Positions 2,624-10,113 of a stretch of 10,113 bases of DNA are shown here, piece by piece; the first letter of the stretch is position 1; every line of letters starts with the position of its first letter. The notes under the pieces are model-generated. The model was given only the letters and a program-made list of their open reading frames with translations. It did no database searches and was not told the DNA's origin. The DNA lies in NCBI GenBank assembly GCA_903864555.1, contig CAIPGJ010000717.1, forward strand, positions 1 to 10,113, written 5' to 3'. A program made the position numbers and the translations under genes. Source of the DNA: an uncultured Pseudomonadota bacterium (GTDB lineage: Bacteria; Pseudomonadota; Gammaproteobacteria; Burkholderiales; SG8-39).

Positions 2624-3859
2624 CTAGATCACCTTTTCCTGGATGAGCTGCTCCAGCTCCGCCTGGTCCATCTTGAGCAGGCCAGCCAGCACCTGAGCCG
2701 TATGCTGGCCCTCGGTAGGCGCCGGGGCATCGAAACTGGCATCGAAATTCTGGAACTTGACCGGGTATCCTGCCACGGTTGCACCCGCAGAATCGCCCAC
2801 CATGGGGTGGGGCAACTTGCCCACCAGCCCACGCGACTTGAGGTGTGGATCACTCAGCAGTTCGGGGATGGATGTCACCGGCCCGCAAGCCAGCCCCACC
2901 GACTCGCACGCGCGAACCGCCTCCACCTTGGTCAGGGTGCCTGTCCACTCGTTCACCAACCGGTCCACTTCCTTGACGTTGACCATGCGGTGATCGAGTG
3001 TTGCGAAGCGCGGATCCTTCGCCAATTCCTCGCGCCCCATCAACGCAGTCAGGCGCGCCCACTGATGCTGTTGGCCAGCCATGATGACGACGGTGCCGTC
3101 CTTGCATTCATAGGAATTGGCCGGCACCAGCGCCATCTGGTTGCCCACGCGCGCAGTCCTGGCATCGGAGGCAATGTAATCAAGGGGCGCATCCCAGACC
3201 AGCGATGCGAGGCAATCGAGCATGGCGACATCGATGAACTGGCCTTCGCCAGTCCTGTCGCGCTGCCTTAGCGCAGCAAGTATCCCGGAGGTTGCGAACA
3301 GAGGGGCAACGCCATCGCCGGCCAGAAAGCCTGCACGGGTTGGCGGGCCGTCGGCAAACCCGGTCATCTCCATCACCCCGCTCATCGCCTGAACGACCGT
3401 GTCGTAGGCCGCTCGGGTGCGGTAGGGCCCGGAGTGCCCGAAACCGGTAATGGAACAGCAGATGATGTCCTTCTTGATCTGCCGCAGTTTTTCATAGGTG
3501 ATTCCCAGGCGCTCGGTGACTCCGGGGCGGTAATTGTCCAGCACCACATCGGAGATCGCCACCAGGCGATAGAAGATCGCTATGCCCTTGGGTGACTTCA
3601 GGTTGAGCGTCAGCCCCTTCTTGCCCCGGTTACGTTTGAGAAAGTAGATCGCCATGTCGGTGGGGTCATCGTCCATGGCAGCGATTCCCCTGGCACCAAG
3701 GTACGGGCCGGCGCGGCGCGCTGAATCACCCACGCCGGGCGCTTCGATTTTCAGAACCTCCGCCCCGAGCGCCACGAAATGGGCTGCGCACATGGGCCCG
3801 GAAGCCGCCTGGGTAAGATCGAGAACTCGCAGGTCAGAGAGCGGTTTATCGATCGCCAT
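2624..3859 (-). CDS. Family III (CaiB/BaiF) CoA-transferase, copy 2
   Basis: The protein has 411 residues, full length for the family. It opens with LSDLRVLDLTQAASGPMCAAHFVALGAEVLKIE in family style (written here as consecutive family blocks LSDLRVLDL and GAEVLKIE), has DNYRPGVTERLGI at about 108-120 and FGHSGPY at about 140-146. The catalytic aspartate is D215 in the block IDVAMLD. It is expected to transfer CoA to a carboxylate substrate in the cytoplasm. The ATG at 3857-3859 lies 3 bases after the stop codon of the MaoC-like gene and is served by a strong ribosome binding site at 3871-3877. The two genes are therefore almost certainly one transcript, and the dehydratase and the transferase probably act in succession on the same CoA thioester. 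It is clearly homologous to the CoA-transferase at 116-1324 but well diverged, so the two probably use different substrates or run in different directions. The substrate is not deducible. Confidence 0.95.
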   Translation of the reverse strand: MAIDKPLSDLRVLDLTQAASGPMCAAHFVALGAEVLKIEAPGVGDSARRAGPYLGARGIAAMDDDPTDMAIYFLKRNRGKKGLTLNLKSPKGIAIFYRLVAISDVVLDNYRPGVTERLGITYEKLRQIKKDIICCSITGFGHSGPYRTRAAYDTVVQAMSGVMEMTGFADGPPTRAGFLAGDGVAPLFATSGILAALRQRDRTGEGQFIDVAMLDCLASLVWDAPLDYIASDARTARVGNQMALVPANSYECKDGTVVIMAGQQHQWARLTALMGREELAKDPRFATLDHRMVNVKEVDRLVNEWTGTLTKVEAVRACESVGLACGPVTSIPELLSDPHLKSRGLVGKLPHPMVGDSAGATVAGYPVKFQNFDASFDAPAPTEGQHTAQVLAGLLKMDQAELEQLIQEKVI

Positions 3860-3862
3860 GGC

Positions 3863-4996
3863 TCAGGCCGCTCCTTCTTTTCTGGAGGGCAGCCGGATGA
3901 TGGCTTCACCGGTTGCGTGGCAGTTCCCCCGCTGCGTTTCGGCCTTCATGGCGAGCTTCACCAGGCATTCGCCATCCTGCATGAATTTCTCAGCCACGCT
4001 GCCGCGAATCCAGGTGGTATCCCCGACATAGTTCGGCGAGAGGAAAGATGTGCGCAACTCCTTGAGCCAGGCAACATCCCCCATCCAGTTGGTCGCGAGG
4101 TGGGCAAACCAGCAGCTGCGCTGCCTGCCGGTATCGTAGGGCGCCCCCAGCCCGCTGCGTCTGGCCAGCTCGGCATCGAAGTGGGCGCTTTCTGGCGAAT
4201 GACTGATGTTGGTAACCGGGTCAACGATGGCCAGCCCGGGACGTTCCCTGAACTGCAGGTATCGCAGCTTGAGCGGGAGCAGCAGCGGCGCCCCGGCACC
4301 CATCCAGAAACAGATGATGTCAGACACCGTGAGCGGTCCCTTGACCACATGACCTGCGCTGTCTCCGACGCTGACATCCTCCCAGAAGCGCGGGTCCGCG
4401 CCGCGAATGGACTCGGTCTCGTAGTCCTTGTAGATCGACTGCATTTCTTCGGTGGTATAGCGATAAGGCTCGATGGCCTGGTATTTCTTGCTGGCTGTGG
4501 CCTTGCTTCGCTCTGCGCGGATCACCAGGGTACGGTAGGTGGTGTGCACCTCGTTCTTCTGGTTGCGGATCAGATGCTCGAAAGTCTGATGAATGGCGCG
4601 TCCACCCCATTTGCTCGGCTTTTCAGTGACCGAGGTCAGGCCTCGCGTCGAATTGATCACATCGCCGGGATAGATGGGCTGGTGAAACAACCATTCATCG
4701 GTGGCATGCAGCGCAAAGATTCCCGGCAGGCCCGTTCCCTTCTGTCCGCCCGAGAGTGCGACATAACCCGTAAGCGGGGCGGCGATGACGGACTTGTAGG
4801 GCGAGGCTGCCCCATAGGCCTTGTCCGAATAGAGCGGATTTTCCGTGGCCACGCAGTACTGCGCAAATCGCCTGATCACATCATCGGTGATGGTGGTGAA
4901 TGAAGGATCAGCCGGATAGGCTTTGCCGACGCGTCGTTTCACACGCTCTACGTCGCTGTCCTTGATCGTCAGATTGCCCGAGTTGCCAATGGCCAC
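3863..4996 (-). CDS. MaoC-like double-hotdog acyl-CoA dehydratase/hydratase (FAS1-like dehydratase N-domain)
   Basis: The protein has 377 residues, consistent with two hotdog folds in one chain. The first, about 30-165, has the FAS1-like dehydratase pattern (FAQYCVATENPLYSD at 44-58, then SVIAAPLTGY and the HQPIYPGD strand at 105-112). The second, about 200-370, has GPLTVSDIICF, then SAHFDAELARRSGLGAPYDTG at 271-291 broken as SAHFD and GLGAPYDTG, followed by NWMGD and a second GDTTWIRG strand. H272 and D274 are candidates for the hydratase catalytic region; the N-terminal copy has tyrosine where a histidine would be expected and is probably structural. The family adds or removes water on enoyl/hydroxyacyl-CoA thioesters, including mesaconyl-CoA-type substrates. 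The start is GTG at 4994-4996, supported by GGAG six bases upstream (5003-5006). It is the first gene of the minus-strand pair with the CoA-transferase. The fold is firm; the exact reaction is inferred. Confidence 0.87.
   Translation of the reverse strand: MAIGNSGNLTIKDSDVERVKRRVGKAYPADPSFTTITDDVIRRFAQYCVATENPLYSDKAYGAASPYKSVIAAPLTGYVALSGGQKGTGLPGIFALHATDEWLFHQPIYPGDVINSTRGLTSVTEKPSKWGGRAIHQTFEHLIRNQKNEVHTTYRTLVIRAERSKATASKKYQAIEPYRYTTEEMQSIYKDYETESIRGADPRFWEDVSVGDSAGHVVKGPLTVSDIICFWMGAGAPLLLPLKLRYLQFRERPGLAIVDPVTNISHSPESAHFDAELARRSGLGAPYDTGRQRSCWFAHLATNWMGDVAWLKELRTSFLSPNYVGDTTWIRGSVAEKFMQDGECLVKLAMKAETQRGNCHATGEAIIRLPSRKEGAA
3871..3877 (-). promoter_or_regulatory. Ribosome binding site of CoA-transferase copy 2
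   Basis: The minus strand reads GAAGGAG here, inside the last codons of the MaoC-like gene and 11 bases before the ATG of the CoA-transferase. It supports translation of both genes from one mRNA. Confidence 0.7.
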
Positions 4997-5352
4997 GATT
5001 CACTCCGAGATTAGTCTTTCATTGCCTATGAACGGGGTCGCTGCCTGCCAGTCAGCCAGATAGACCTGCCACATCTGCCGCCATGGATGACGGACAGGTT
5101 GGCCTGCAATACGTTTGGTTTTACCCAACGGTCTTGCCCATAGAACACCGCGGGACACAATAGGGCCGAAGCGATGCTTTGGAAATACAGCAAACTGGGT
5201 ATCTGATATTCAGATTCCGTTTAGCTCAGGACCGGGTGGGGGCGATAAAGTAGCCACCGCTTCGCCTGAACACAAAAGCAGGACCGAGCACATTGGCTGC
5301 GCAATGGTTGCCGACGAAGCGCCTGCTTGCAGCCTATCAACAGAGGCAACTG
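4997..5352. promoter_or_regulatory. Divergent intergenic control region between the two gene arms
   Basis: These 356 bases separate the minus-strand dehydratase gene from the plus-strand CoA-transferase gene and must hold promoters for both arms. I see a perfect LysR-type dyad at 5201-5215 and an imperfect dyad at 5112-5130 (CGTTTGG, five bases, CCCAACG, one mismatch). Weak sigma-70-like boxes occur on the plus strand, TTTAGC at 5220-5225 and GATAAA at 5244-5249 with an 18-base spacer, just right of the dyad. They match the consensus poorly and are only a suggestion. The stretch is visibly more AT-rich around 5175-5225 than the flanking genes. No convincing small gene is present. A TTG at 5293 in frame with the plus-strand gene could extend that protein by 20 residues into this region. 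Confidence 0.6.
5201..5215. promoter_or_regulatory. Candidate LysR operator, ATC-N9-GAT palindrome
   Basis: The sequence ATCTGATATTCAGAT is a perfect inverted repeat of six-base arms ATCTGA and TCAGAT around TAT. It satisfies both the general LysR-type T-N11-A rule and the stricter ATC-N9-GAT form known from NodD-like sites. It lies in the divergent promoter region, 137 bases before the ATG at 5353, and a LysR gene is in the same locus, so it is the best candidate for that protein's recognition site. It could control both arms. Binding is inferred, not shown. Confidence 0.6.
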
Positions 5353-7092
5353 ATGGACGATTCACCCAGCAGCGATCAGCCAGGCTTGCCCTGGCTGGCC
5401 GAGGACATCCGCCCGGACCGGTTGATGAGCCTTGAACAGGCACTTTCCAGTTTCGTGCTCCCTGACAGCAGTGTCTATATCGCTACCGATGTGCAGGCTG
5501 CCGTGCGTGGCATTGCCCGACAGTTTGCCCTGAGCGGCGCCGGGCTCACAGTCATCTGCCTGCGAGCAGGCGCCAGCCATGTCGGCGAATTGCTGCATGC
5601 GGGCCTGGTTAAAAAGCTCATCGCCGCCTCGTTCGGCGTGCAGTTCCCGGCGTTCCAGCCCTGCCCGCTGGTGCAGCGCCGCTATCAGGCAGGCGACACC
5701 CAATTTGAATCCTGGTCCCTGTTCTCACTGGTGCAGCGCCTGATGGCCGGCGCCATGGGCATTCCCTTCTTTCCGACAAGGTCCCTGGTCGGTTCCGCAA
5801 TGACAGCCCATGCGGATTACGCCACCTTGCCCAGCCCTTTTTCCGGAGAGTCGGTGGCCGTGGTCTCGGCGCTGACCCCCGATGTCACCATAGCCCACGC
5901 GCTGGCTGCCGATACGGCAGGCAACGCCATCGTGGTGCCACCCTTCGAAGACGATCTGTGGTCGACGCGGGCCGCAACAAAGGGCGTCATCGTCCTCGCG
6001 GAGAACATCGTTCCCACGGCATTCCTCCGCCAGCACGCGAACCTGGTGCGGATTCCGGCGGCCAAGGTCATCGCGGTCTGCCACACGCCTTATGCCGCCC
6101 ATCCGGAAGGCTATGAAAGCGGCCTGGATCTGGACCTGCCCATCACGCGCTACGCCAGAGATGTCACCCACTATCAGGATTACGCGCGGGCGGCCCGCGA
6201 TGACGGGGCCTTCCGGCAATGGGCCAAGGAATGGATCACCGGTATTGAAAGTCATGCGGCCTACGTCAGTCGCCTGGATCTCGACCGTACAGGTACCGGG
6301 AACTCTGCCGAATCACGAAAGCCGCCTTCCCTGGCGCAGGTCTATTCCCGCTACACCGAACGCATGGCAGAACCATGGACGCCAGTGGACATGATGATCG
6401 TGGCAACGGCGCGCATGGTCCGGGACCTCGTGATGTCAAAGAAGTACAAGACCATGCTGGTGGGTGCCGGCAATTGTCGGACAGCAGGCGCGCTCGCCTA
6501 TTACCTCCTGAAAAAAGCCGGATGCGCATTGACTCTGGTCGAGGGAACGGGACGTGTCGGTTATGAACCTCTGCCCATAGCCAATGCCAACCGGCTGACT
6601 TCCACCATGCTCACCGGCACGGTGGACGCCTATGGCACCCTGGTCGGTGGCCATCAGAATCAATGCCTGGCGCTGCTCGGTTCCGGGGAAATCGATGTAT
6701 TCGGCAACATGAATTCGACTTTCTCCCATGGCACCTTTCTGGTCGGCTCGGGCGGCTCCAATGACGCTGTCAGCCTGGCCGCCGAAACCCTGGTGATGAT
6801 GAGGCAGAGCGCCCGTCGCATGGTGCCACGGGTGGAGTGCGTCACTTCGCCCGGATCCCGGGTGACGCAGCTCATCTCCGAGCAAGGCATTTACGACAAG
6901 GATGCCGATGGACGTTTCCTTCTGCAGGGATACTTTGCCTATGACGGCATCCGGACGGCGGATGAGGCAACCAGGGCGATCCAGGAAAAATGCGGATGGC
7001 CGATCAGGACTGGCAATCTGCACAGCATTGCCCCGCCCTCTGACGAGGAATTATCGATTCTGCGCTGGCTAACCGGGACGCCAAGCCCATGA
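5353..7092 (+). CDS. Single-chain family I (glutaconate-type) CoA-transferase, alpha and beta halves fused
   Basis: The protein has 579 residues from the ATG at 5353. The N-terminal half resembles the alpha subunit of glutaconate-type CoA-transferases: MSLEQALSSFV, GLTVICLRAGAS, ELLHAGLVKKL, then ESWSLFSLVQRLMAGAMGIPF and PTRSLVGS (given as separate blocks). The C-terminal half, from about residue 340, resembles the beta subunit: MIVATARMVRDLV, a glycine-rich MLVGAGNCRTAGALA segment, LVEGTGRVGYEP, TLVGGHQNQ and LVGSGGSND. The glutamate of VEGTG (residue 397) is the likely acceptor of CoA, matching the catalytic beta-subunit glutamate. In most relatives the halves are separate genes of roughly 300 residues each. 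AGAGG (5342-5346) six bases before the ATG decides the start; an upstream TTG at 5293, also with a possible AGGA, would add 20 residues. It heads the plus-strand arm. A CoA hydrolase or ring-opening role as in IpdAB-like proteins is an alternative to transfer. Confidence 0.85.
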   Translation: MDDSPSSDQPGLPWLAEDIRPDRLMSLEQALSSFVLPDSSVYIATDVQAAVRGIARQFALSGAGLTVICLRAGASHVGELLHAGLVKKLIAASFGVQFPAFQPCPLVQRRYQAGDTQFESWSLFSLVQRLMAGAMGIPFFPTRSLVGSAMTAHADYATLPSPFSGESVAVVSALTPDVTIAHALAADTAGNAIVVPPFEDDLWSTRAATKGVIVLAENIVPTAFLRQHANLVRIPAAKVIAVCHTPYAAHPEGYESGLDLDLPITRYARDVTHYQDYARAARDDGAFRQWAKEWITGIESHAAYVSRLDLDRTGTGNSAESRKPPSLAQVYSRYTERMAEPWTPVDMMIVATARMVRDLVMSKKYKTMLVGAGNCRTAGALAYYLLKKAGCALTLVEGTGRVGYEPLPIANANRLTSTMLTGTVDAYGTLVGGHQNQCLALLGSGEIDVFGNMNSTFSHGTFLVGSGGSNDAVSLAAETLVMMRQSARRMVPRVECVTSPGSRVTQLISEQGIYDKDADGRFLLQGYFAYDGIRTADEATRAIQEKCGWPIRTGNLHSIAPPSDEELSILRWLTGTPSP

Positions 7093-7221
7093 GTCAAGGC
7101 CATCTTCCATGCCGTTCAGCGCTGACCGGCTGAATACGGATTGCGCCCACCAGGCCAGGCAAAAGTCATGACCATTGTGCCGGGGGACTCAGCACCACAT
7201 CGAGCATGTCCATTCAAATGC

Positions 7222-7229
7222 AGGAGGAG
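7222..7229 (+). promoter_or_regulatory. Ribosome binding site of the Bug receptor gene
   Basis: AGGAGGAG, six bases before the ATG at 7236, is close to ideal. It selects this ATG over the in-frame ATG at 7206, which has no comparable site. Confidence 0.8.
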
Positions 7230-7235
7230 CAGAAC

Positions 7236-8273
7236 ATGAAGCACTGTCCAGGTCTTACCGCAATATCGGCGATGCATCGAGTCTCACAGAGAACCATGCA
7301 GCGCATGCGTCCGGCACGCTTGCTCGGTCCGGTCATGCTCGCCTGCCTGCTCAATGCCGGGTCAGCCGTGGCCCAGTATCCTGCCAAGCCGGTACGGGTG
7401 GTCGTCCCCTACGGCGTCGGCACGTCCACCGATCTGCTGGCACGCGCCGTGGGCGAGCCCATGTCCAAGTCGCTGGGACAGGCAATCCTGGTCGACAATC
7501 GTGCCGGTGCCAATTCCACCCTGGGCACGGAAATGGTGGCGCGCTCCCCCAATGACGGTTACACCATCCTCTTCGCCACCAACGCGGGCATGGCCGCCAG
7601 CCCGGCCGGGCTGTGGCGCAACATCAGCTATGATCCGATCAAGGATTTCGCCCCCATCAGCCTGGTCGCCTCGATTTATCACATCCTGGTCGTCAATCCT
7701 TCGCTTCCGGCACAGAACCTGCCGCAGCTGGTGACCCTGCTCAAGGCCAATCCGGGCAAATACAACTATGGCAGTGCCAATACCGCGGGCTTTGTATACA
7801 TGGAAGTGTTCAAGAGGCTGACCGGCGCCAATGTCGTCAACGTTCCCTACAAATCCTCACCACAGGCCAGCACCGACCTCATCAGCGGCCGCATCCACAT
7901 GATGTTCATCGACCCGGCCACGGGCGTGCCCAGGGTGCGCGCCGGCCAGTTGCGCGCGATTGCGTCGGTGCTTCGCCGCTCGCCGCTGCTGCCGGACCTG
8001 CCCACCTTCGCCGAATCCGGCGTGGATGGCATCGTCGATGCCTCCGGCTGGTATGCCTACTATGCCCCGGCTGGCACCGCACCGGCCATTGTGGGACGAC
8101 TCAACCGCGAAATTGTCGGCGTTCTGAAGACACCGCTCATTCGCGACTGGATTGTCAACAACGGCTACAACGTGGTCGGGTCCAGCCCCGAGGAGCTGGA
8201 CACCTATACCAGGAAGCAGATTGAGTTCTGGACCCAGCTCATCAAGGACATGAACATCGAACCGGCTGGCTGA
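7236..8273 (+). CDS. Bug-family (TctC-like) periplasmic solute-binding receptor
   Basis: The precursor has 345 residues. A long positively charged n-region (MQRMRPARL) leads into a hydrophobic core (GPVMLACLLNAG) and a probable signal peptidase I site SAVA|Q between residues 46 and 47, giving a mature protein of about 299 residues, normal for the family. The mature start QYPAKPVRVVVPYG, then TDLLARAVGEPMSKSLGQ, DNRAGANS and PNDGYTILFA are the hallmark blocks of Bug/TctC receptors. These bind carboxylates in the periplasm and feed tripartite tricarboxylate transporters or act as orphan sensors. No TctA or TctB membrane gene is in the window, as is usual for the many orphan Bug genes of Burkholderiales. 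It lies 143 bases after the CoA-transferase and 66 bases before the selenoprotein gene on the same strand, suggesting that it supplies the pathway's substrate. The n-region is unusually long, and translation could start further in, at the ATG of MHRVS or MQRMR. The ligand is unknown. Confidence 0.93.
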   Translation: MKHCPGLTAISAMHRVSQRTMQRMRPARLLGPVMLACLLNAGSAVAQYPAKPVRVVVPYGVGTSTDLLARAVGEPMSKSLGQAILVDNRAGANSTLGTEMVARSPNDGYTILFATNAGMAASPAGLWRNISYDPIKDFAPISLVASIYHILVVNPSLPAQNLPQLVTLLKANPGKYNYGSANTAGFVYMEVFKRLTGANVVNVPYKSSPQASTDLISGRIHMMFIDPATGVPRVRAGQLRAIASVLRRSPLLPDLPTFAESGVDGIVDASGWYAYYAPAGTAPAIVGRLNREIVGVLKTPLIRDWIVNNGYNVVGSSPEELDTYTRKQIEFWTQLIKDMNIEPAG

Positions 8274-8327
8274 ATCGTCCCGACTGAAACACTTCGGACT
8301 GGATGCCTTTTTGAACATGGATAAAGC

Positions 8328-8333
8328 AAGGAG
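8328..8333 (+). promoter_or_regulatory. Ribosome binding site of the selenoprotein gene
   Basis: AAGGAG, six bases before a GTG codon at 8340-8342. It fixes a non-ATG start for the gene and shows that the 5' part is actively translated. Confidence 0.75.
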
Positions 8334-8339
8334 AACGGC

Positions 8340-10088
8340 GTGGCAAACACGAGCAATGATGGATATTACGAAGCCTATTGGCCACGCACGCCGCGGCAGA
8401 CCGGCATCAAGCCGCTGGCGTCCCGGCTCAAATCGCTGGAAGGCAAGACCATTGCCTTCATCTGGGACTACATCTTTCGCGGCGACGAAATCTTTGCCCA
8501 TCTGGAAGAGGGCCTGAAAGCCCGCTATCCGGGAATGCGCTTTATCAGTTACACCGAGTTCGGCAACGTCCATGCCGGAACGGAGAAGGAGGCGCTGGCG
8601 AGGTTGCCGCAGCAGTTGAAAGACCTGAAAGTGGACGGGGTCGTCTGCGGCATGGCCTGTTGAGGCAGCTGCACGGCCGCCGTGATGCGAGCCAGCGCAG
8701 TCTGCGAAAACGCCGGAGTCCCCGCCGCCTCCCTGACCTGTGAAGGATTCCTCGCACAGGCCGCCGCCACATCGATCGGACTGGGCATGCCCAACATGCC
8801 GGTGGCGATGGTGCCCGGCCATGTGGGCGCCCAAAGCAAGGAGGAGCTCAGGAAGAACATCTTCGAGGTCACCCTGGACCGGGTAATCGACAACCTGACC
8901 CGGATGCCGCCGCCAGCCAGTGCTCGCGGCGAACCCAAAGCCCGCGACATCGTGGTCAAGGGAGGCTTCGATGAGGTGAACCGCCACTTCTACAAGAACG
9001 AGTTGAGCGACGGCCTGCCCATCGTTCCACCCACCCTGGAAAGAATAGAGGCTTTCCTGCGCTTCACCGACCGGGATCCCGACGAGGTATTGGGAATCAT
9101 TCTTCCAGACAGCAGGGCGGCGACCATCTGGAGCATCGCGGTCAATGGCGTCATGGCCGGGTGCCGCCCGGAATACATGCCCGTGCTGATTGCCGCAGTC
9201 GAGGTCATGTGCGACTCCCGCTACGGTGTCGAACATTCCTGCAATACGCCGGGCGCAGAAGCCCTCATCATCATCAACGGCCCCATCATCAAGCAGCTGG
9301 GTTTCAACTACCAGCAGGGCGCCTTGCGCGACGGCATCATGCCCAACACCGCCATAGGCCGGTTCTGGCGGCTATACATGCGCAATGTCGCCGGGTTCCT
9401 GCACAACAAGACCGACAAGGCCACCCATGGGGGTACCTGGCGAGTGGTGCTGGCGGAGAACGAGGATGTGGCGTCAGAAATCGGCTGGGAGCCCAACAGC
9501 GTCGAGATGGGCTTCTCGGCCGGGGACAATGTCGTCACCGTCGCCCGCTACACCGGTGGCGGCGCCTTTCCTTCGGTGATGGGCGACACCCCCGAGACCT
9601 TGCTGCCCTATTTGAATGACTCGGTTGGCCGCATGCATTCCTGGCACATTCACTTCACCGAGGCATCCGGCGACGGCTCGCTGCGGCCGCTGGTGGTCAT
9701 CAGCCCCATTCTTGCCCGGACCATCGCCAAGGCTGGCTGGTCCAAGCACGATGTGAAGGAATACTTCTATCAGCACACCCGCATGACTGCCGGGAAGTTC
9801 GAGCATTTCCTGAGGGAATGGACCGTGAAAGGCACCTGGAACATCGAAACGGCTGTCAAGGAAGGCCGCATGCCAGCGCATTTCCTGGAGTCCAATGATC
9901 CGGAACGCCTCGTTCCCATCGTCTGGCATGCCAAGGACTTCATGATCGTGGTCAGCGGCGACCTGCTGCGCAACAACGCCTTTGTCTTCGCGCACAACGC
10001 CTACATGGGCTATCCGACGGGCAAGAAGATCCGACTGGTGGCCGACTGGGACAGTCGCCTGGCCGAGGCGCAGAAGGCATACGGATGA
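8340..10088 (+). CDS. UGSC-type selenoprotein with C-terminal domain of unknown function (TGA at 8661-8663 read as selenocysteine)
   Basis: The reading frame gives 582 residues if the single in-frame TGA is read as selenocysteine 108. The N-terminal part has an alpha/beta start (GKTIAFIWDYIFRGDEIF, about 35-52) and runs into VVCGMAC-U-GSCTAAV, then ENAGVPAASLTCEGF and MPVAMVPGHVG (about 154-163). C103, C107, U108 and C111 form a likely redox or metal centre. I recall a family of bacterial (seleno)proteins named for this UGSC motif; its function is not established to my knowledge. From about residue 205 comes a second domain of roughly 370 residues with ELSDGLPIVPPT (221-232), VNGVMAGCRPEYMP (268-281) and MPNTAIGRFWRLYMRN (334-349), which I cannot name functionally. 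No signal peptide or membrane segment is seen, so it is probably cytoplasmic. The start is GTG, set by AAGGAG at 8328-8333. The downstream part has no ribosome binding site of its own before GTG 8682 or ATG 8685, arguing for one protein. Alternatives: a nonsense mutation or two separate ORFs. Confidence 0.82.
8661..8663 (+). other. In-frame TGA, probable selenocysteine codon
   Basis: This TGA is the only stop in an otherwise open frame of 583 codons. It sits between MAC and GSC, so the peptide reads CGMAC-U-GSC, with cysteines on both sides as in redox selenoproteins. The frame on both sides gives well-formed protein sequence, and a SECIS-like hairpin follows. Decoding would need SelA/B/C/D from elsewhere in the genome. 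Confidence 0.82.
8668..8701 (+). promoter_or_regulatory. Candidate bacterial SECIS hairpin
   Basis: Hand folding gives C8669-C8672 paired with G8697-G8700 (G8668-U8701 as a closing wobble), an A8673/C8696 mismatch, C8674-G8695, a bulged A8694, G8675-C8677 with G8691-C8693, a bulged A8690, and C8678-C8680 with G8687-G8689. The apical loop is CGUGAU at 8681-8686. The loop begins 17 bases after the TGA, has G in its first two positions and includes a GU, all in line with the published bacterial SECIS consensus. The fold was not computed, so alternatives in this GC-rich stretch are possible. Confidence 0.65.
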
Positions 10089-10113
10089 CATCACGGACTG
10101 GCTCAGGCCAGCA

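Follow-up and report, generated by a model that had tools for sequence, protein, structure and literature searches.

The stretch of DNA analysed here (the window, 10,113 nucleotides) harbours a gene on its forward strand, at positions 8340 to 10088, with an internal stop codon that is most likely read as selenocysteine (Sec); ordinary annotation therefore cuts the gene in two. The original prediction of one selenoprotein gene was real and had been read correctly; the gene belongs, in a long form, to the known selenoprotein family UGSC. The best explanation, which we hold with somewhat better than even confidence, is that it encodes a two-domain UGSC selenoprotein that would act as a substrate-cleaving reductive selenoenzyme. 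The interest of the gene lies in the likely chemistry of its family and in the multiplication of the family within genomes.

The complete gene, as defined by ORF calls and homologs, encodes 582 residues with Sec at position 108 and ends with the stop codon TGA at 10086–10088. The mass calculated for the full-length product, with Cys in place of Sec, is 64 kDa. We re-read the frame from GTG 8340 to the end of the last codon at 10085, and among the 582 codons the sole in-frame stop was the TGA at 8661–8663 (codon 108), lying in CGMAC-U-GSC as had been claimed. The sequence AAGGAG is found at 8328–8333, 6 nt upstream of GTG 8340, and represents the strong ribosome-binding site predicted for the first part of the gene. 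The 3′ part had been said to lack such a site, and inspection of the sequence before GTG 8682 and ATG 8685 revealed nothing resembling AAGGAG. Mechanical ORF calling reproduced the expected split into two pieces of 107 aa (8340–8663) and 468 aa (8682–10088).

A protein search gave 5110 relatives among 7994 candidates scored, and features were counted on the 120 listed homologs. Among these, 109 were 432–473 aa in length, and 78 of the 109 start with MLRASA or VLRASA, just past the TGA; databases thus split, and thereby truncate, most of the listed relatives in the same manner. The remaining 11 listed homologs were full-length, and all 11 possessed Cys at the position of Sec in a motif C-G-[SA]-C. 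We also scanned GTDB species genomes with two peptide patterns, and the best 80 of at least 572 related stretches were collected, corresponding to 79 loci. As both patterns lie within the C-terminal domain, this sample is without bias toward the TGA. In all 79 loci, TGA was present at the codon aligned to codon 108, followed by G-[SAG]-C. Further in-frame stops in these loci (L003, L004, L010 and L012) were located at least 465 codons downstream, at or past the end of the gene, and two loci (L049 and L061) end at contig boundaries. Given the occurrence of TGA at the aligned codon in all 79 loci, we rejected a pseudogene, a sequencing error or two genes as candidates. The gene would have been called into question by homologs whose two halves are always separate genes or by an unrelated residue at the TGA position; what we found were the 11 full-length Cys forms and a TGA in every locus. 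The titles of the records point to beta-, alpha- and gammaproteobacteria, Chloroflexi, Acidimicrobiales and others, and no relatives were found among viral contigs. Several metagenome bins (L002, L005, L010, L013, L014, L017, L042 and others) bear the name Bordetella parapertussis or Klebsiella pneumoniae in their titles, labels that seem doubtful.

The sequence following the TGA was then examined for a SECIS element. In most relatives a hairpin of the form GCCCGC - CGUGNU - GCGGGC, or near it, was found 3′ of the TGA. In a DNA alignment of 51 sequences, the window plus 50 of the 79 loci, the six pairs of the hairpin were formed in 97.3% of the cells, compared to 22.7–53.3% in slid versions. 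In 6 of 50 distinct sequences the outer pair is A-U in place of G-C, and no other pair was changed on both sides. In terms of synonymous conservation beyond codon usage, codons 113, 114, 115, 116 and 117 were the top five of 247 testable codons (all 80 sequences). Codon freeze and covariation thus identify a SECIS-type hairpin at the family level, whereas the window's own copy is weaker and bulged. The latter (8675–8693) consists of GGCCGC, the loop CGUGAU and GCG(A)GCC, with a stem formed by 8675–8680 and 8687–8693 from which A8690 bulges. Compared to the family, two stem positions are altered (C to G and G to A) in addition to the bulged A, while the inner pairs are the same. Its energy was −8.9 kcal/mol against a mean of −12.3 for the 50 relatives (s.d. 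1.6, weakest −8.3), and is thus inside their range. A 66-nt fold of the window alone was unremarkable (z −0.74) and gave no support in itself, and a search of 8200–9000 against Rfam detected no SECIS family, only one sub-threshold chance match. It is plausible that the window's hairpin functions as a SECIS, weaker than the norm and atypical. Comparison of the relatives showed that the TGA at codon 108 has the properties of a conserved Sec codon, with Cys as the alternative, followed by a predicted SECIS hairpin conserved throughout the family.

Concerning the machinery for Sec insertion, we examined the genomes behind 18 of the loci. Matches over curated cut-offs were found for selB, selA and selD in 18 of 18 genomes each, and for tRNA-Sec in 17. 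In 14 control genomes, the same cut-offs were exceeded by selB in 2, selA in 1, selD in 2 and tRNA-Sec in 5; with 5 of 14 controls over the cut-off, the tRNA-Sec search is not very specific. The genome with no tRNA-Sec over the cut-off, G017, was searched twice (150 of 734 candidates were scored in the second search) and its best match was a tRNA-Ser; selA, selB and selD are all present. The best selD match has an in-frame TGA in 11 of the 18 genomes (G001–G018). UGSC selenoproteins have also been described in Geodermatophilaceae whose tRNA-Sec anticodon is CUA (PMC5330540).

The occurrence of sel genes in the relatives, together with the Sec codon and its Cys homologs and the SECIS-type hairpin, supports the predicted single selenoprotein gene. 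The opposing view would treat the TGA as a genuine stop, or as the product of a sequencing error or pseudogene mutation, leaving two proteins or a dead gene. In its favour, of the 51 hairpins that of the window belongs to the four or five weakest and is alone in its two changes, and databases list the 3′ part by itself. This reading is nevertheless contradicted by the TGA shared by 79 of 79 relatives, by the codon choice past the TGA that is frozen in the family, by coding that is continuous on either side, and by the sel genes, and we consider it extremely improbable. That residue 108 is Sec can be regarded as nearly certain.

The primary structure of the selenoprotein was then examined in detail. 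Residues 14–187 (8379–8900) matched the UGSC domain PF24696 with 106.7 bits against a gathering score of 25; the motif had been recognized beforehand as that of a named (seleno)protein family, and this proved to be the case. The protein shares with the UGSC family (PF24696, NF041046, 'UGSC-containing protein') both the domain and the U-G-S-C motif, formed here by U108-G-S-C111 and found as U-G-[SAG]-C in 79 of 79 loci. Unlike the equivalog members, it does not reach the NF041046 cut-off of 125 bits, scoring 56.5 as the whole protein and 61 as the domain. In a study from 2008, UGSC is fused to a domain called Unknown_1, with function unknown (PMC2398784), and a UGSC row in a table of PMC5029168 reads 26 and 33, which we took as organisms and genes. 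PF24696 is not named in the literature searched, while NF041046 is. In the UGSC passages of that selenoprotein literature, we encountered no tested function for UGSC, no link to PrdB or GrdB and no comparable copy numbers.

A confident structural model of the UGSC domain displayed a Rossmann-like core (residues 31–195), with U108 at the start of the helix following a central strand. Searches of the PDB by sequence with the whole protein, the UGSC domain, the C-terminal domain and the PrdB-like set described below resulted in weak, unconvincing matches only. A Foldseek search with the whole model gave ten rows with E≤0.001, led by MetH, fumarase and FtsZ, and with TM-scores of at most 0.32 these were not interpretable. 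A thioredoxin-fold thiol oxidoreductase carrying out general disulphide or peroxide reduction was suggested in print in 2008. The U-x-x-C motif and the thioredoxin-reductase-like neighbours described below are consistent with such a protein; the modelled core is Rossmann-like, and among 50 listed structure matches of the domain none was named thioredoxin-fold, a list that cannot exclude one. We consider the thioredoxin-fold reading improbable.

The UGSC domain did show a remote similarity to the Sec-bearing B subunits of D-proline reductase (PrdB) and of the glycine/sarcosine/betaine reductases (GrdB). When 28 UGSC domains were scanned singly at E≤0.01, 13 matched TIGR04483 (PrdB), the best with 3.6e-5, and the other matches were to TIGR01918 (3), GrdF (3), TIGR01917 (2) and GrdH (2). 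Besides UGSC itself, all five families matched at this threshold are thus PrdB/GrdB kin. At E≤1 the numbers rose to 25 for PrdB, 11 for TIGR01918 and 10 for TIGR01917; 15 of the 28 domains fell short of E 0.01 for PrdB. The UGSC domain of the window matched TIGR04483 with E 0.0068 and 15.9 bits, where the cut-off is 300, and for TIGR01918 it scored 14.6 against 65.45. The protein alignments comprised 27 of the 79 loci (A5) or a part of the 79 (A2). A profile–profile comparison of UGSC with 17 PrdB-like proteins gave a probability of 82 and a score of 42.9, with Sec aligned on Sec, while the best score in 30 column-shuffled controls was 21.3. Controls with the C-terminal domain were below 1%, and UGSC against alignment A4, from which three full-length sequences had been removed, gave 0.19 (hhalign). 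In PrdB and GrdB (TIGR04483, TIGR01918, TIGR01917 and PF07355), the motif is U-x-x-C with its Sec aligned to that of UGSC, and an E-x-x-G-I/V-P/A motif follows in both groups.

PrdB-like selenoproteins themselves were present in 9 of the 18 genomes, in 20 rows (L086–L105) with up to eight in G011. Excluding L094, L098 and L101, all 17 had an in-frame TGA in U-P-x-[CD] and all 17 matched PrdB. The pyruvoyl partner of these reductases, PF09338 (GrdE/PrdA), was absent from 26 of the 27 relatives' genomes examined, and was found in none of the 18 genomes, including the nine with PrdB-like selenoproteins. PrdB and GrdB have this partner, whereas the UGSC relatives lack it in 26 of 27 genomes and have a different, unclassified partner domain instead. 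The C-terminal domain had no similarity to the sole GrdE-like protein found (probability 0.10, with a single sequence). Classical pyruvoyl chemistry therefore cannot be assumed. We read the relationship as one of remote homology and not of membership, as the scores lie far below the cut-offs of the families and 26 of 27 genomes lack PF09338. A probability of 82 in the profile comparison falls short of being conclusive, and the shared Rossmann-like fold and U-x-x-C motif could be convergent. The results support a distant kinship of the N-terminal UGSC domain with these Sec-bearing B subunits.

The remainder of the protein, a C-terminal domain of residues 198–582 (8931–10085), belongs to no Pfam or NCBIfam family. 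By our own ORF calls, a C-domain protein cluster was represented in 25 of the 79 loci by 33 genes, which include truncated fused copies. A C-domain gene that appeared to be stand-alone was directly adjacent to the UGSC gene in 15 of the 79 loci, and all 18 such genes within two places were on the same strand; the other 64 loci, some with short flanks, were without an adjacent one. As read from contig C99 of G017, fusion to a C-domain accounts for 13 of its 20 UGSC matches; of the 7 unfused ones, 6 have a C-domain gene as their immediate neighbour in the same orientation. Five more C-domain ORFs were found elsewhere on this contig. These results support the C-terminal domain as the usual partner of the UGSC domain, either fused or next door.

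Class I fumarate hydratases occupied ranks 1–24 of the Foldseek list for the C-terminal domain, with E-values down to 1.1e-4, and the protein alignment revealed one invariant Cys in this domain, C275. Both observations would fit a protein in which Sec is a metal or cofactor ligand, or a lyase or hydratase with its chemistry in the C-terminal domain, and in which no reductive cleavage takes place. The TM values of the fumarase matches were too low, and we rejected an assignment of the domain as a class I fumarase. The ligand or lyase interpretation as a whole seems unlikely to us, though less so than a thioredoxin-fold oxidoreductase.

We next turned to the gene neighbourhood. A gene for a TctC-type solute receptor (PF03401) is located at 7206–8273 on the forward strand, ending 66 nt 5′ of the selenoprotein start, and judging from this arrangement it is possible that the two are co-transcribed. 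No promoter-like site was found in 7000–10113. Further upstream on the same strand, 5293–7092 encodes a CoA-transferase with a PF01144 N-terminal domain and a sub-threshold acetyl-CoA hydrolase C-terminal match, a possible pathway partner. The opposite strand of the window carries two class III CoA-transferases, a LysR regulator and a FAS1_DH-type dehydratase. The segments 116–1423, 2624–3859, 3863–4996 and 5293–7092 around the gene comprise two class III CoA-transferases, a FAS1_DH/MaoC-type dehydratase and the PF01144 CoA-transferase.

In the relatives, 154 neighbouring proteins were picked from 41 of the 79 loci and 134 were scanned, the 20 omitted being long ones and others. The commonest Pfam family among the 134 was TctC (19), with Pyr_redox_2 found in 14 and class III CoA-transferases in 4. 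Thioredoxin-reductase-like genes occurred in 19 of the 79 loci. In 15 of these the gene lay no more than two genes away, in the same orientation, and in 8 it was adjacent; CxxCDG was present in 19 of 19. None was seen in the available flanks, which differ in length, of the other 60 loci. SelB was encoded in the flanks of 6 of the 79 loci and SelA in those of 5. In L064, L065, L071 and L046, selA and selB are both near the UGSC gene, with selA directly adjacent in three.

The TctC receptors and CoA-transferases suggest small carboxylates as substrates. Classical B subunits use Sec for attack on a substrate carbon. In the reaction that we tentatively propose for the UGSC protein, and to which we give slightly less than an even chance, a small carboxylate-type compound would be bound between both domains. 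The selenolate of U108 would attack an activated carbon of this substrate, and one of its C-N, C-O or C-halogen bonds would be cleaved reductively. The C-terminal domain would hold the substrate, in place of a pyruvoyl subunit. The selenium adduct would be resolved by C111, the proposed resolving residue, with formation of a Se-S bond, from which a thioredoxin-reductase-type system would regenerate the selenol. The many paralogs in a genome, often beside TctC receptors, may each serve a different substrate.

A comparable system would be the fluoroacetate reductase FarB/FarE of Cloacibacillus porcorum, for which attack on the C-F carbon of fluoroacetate by a GrdB-like Sec protein has been proposed (PMC10838667), and in which several B-type paralogs act on different substrates, as we propose for UGSC. 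It differs from the UGSC protein of the window in having a GrdE-like partner and in occurring in Synergistota. The tie to PrdB and GrdB, the usual partner domain and the recurring thioredoxin-reductase-like neighbours together make a concrete reaction class testable. As far as the literature passages on UGSC indicate, the family and a UGSC fusion (2008) were already known, and the likeness to PrdB/GrdB, the partner domain fused or adjacent, the thioredoxin-reductase-like neighbours and the 146 copies described below are what the present analysis adds.

To examine copy number, we searched for PF24696 in the 18 genomes and in 50 further ones. Every genome of both sets (18 of 18, 50 of 50) had matches over the cut-off, and 20 of the 68 have at least 10 matches, a count that is no survey as all 68 had been picked for having the long form. 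There were at least 55 UGSC matches in G025. The largest number was obtained in G017, a groundwater Chloroflexi metagenome-assembled genome (MAG) of 5.0 Mb (L070; also L106–L153), in which all 150 scored matches of 208 candidates were over the cut-off. At least one in-frame TGA was present inside the UGSC match in 146 of the 150, and 4 had none. In a 2026 review, 63 selenoprotein genes in one MAG are given as the new upper bound, along with a warning of mixed strains (PMC13188914). Should they be real, the Sec genes of G017, at least 146, would be more than twice that bound for bacteria, and such copy numbers would alter the picture of the maximal size of a bacterial selenoproteome. It is conceivable, at odds a little below even, that UGSC and its partner domain constitute a very large unrecognized superfamily, descended from PrdB/GrdB, whose selenoenzymes cleave substrates and whose paralogs are each tuned to another compound. 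If this is true, selenium would be central to carbon catabolism in some free-living lineages.

The copies in G017 were inspected further. U-G-x-C in an open frame was seen in all of the best 30 loci, and on contig C99 (350,501 bp) each of the 20 matches contained exactly one TGA, located in U-G-x-C. The two sets together displayed the motif in 47 distinct genes of G017. Identity between distinct genes of this set was at most 73.5%, indicating that the copies are paralogs and not strain duplicates. Three matches in this genome carry two in-frame TGAs.
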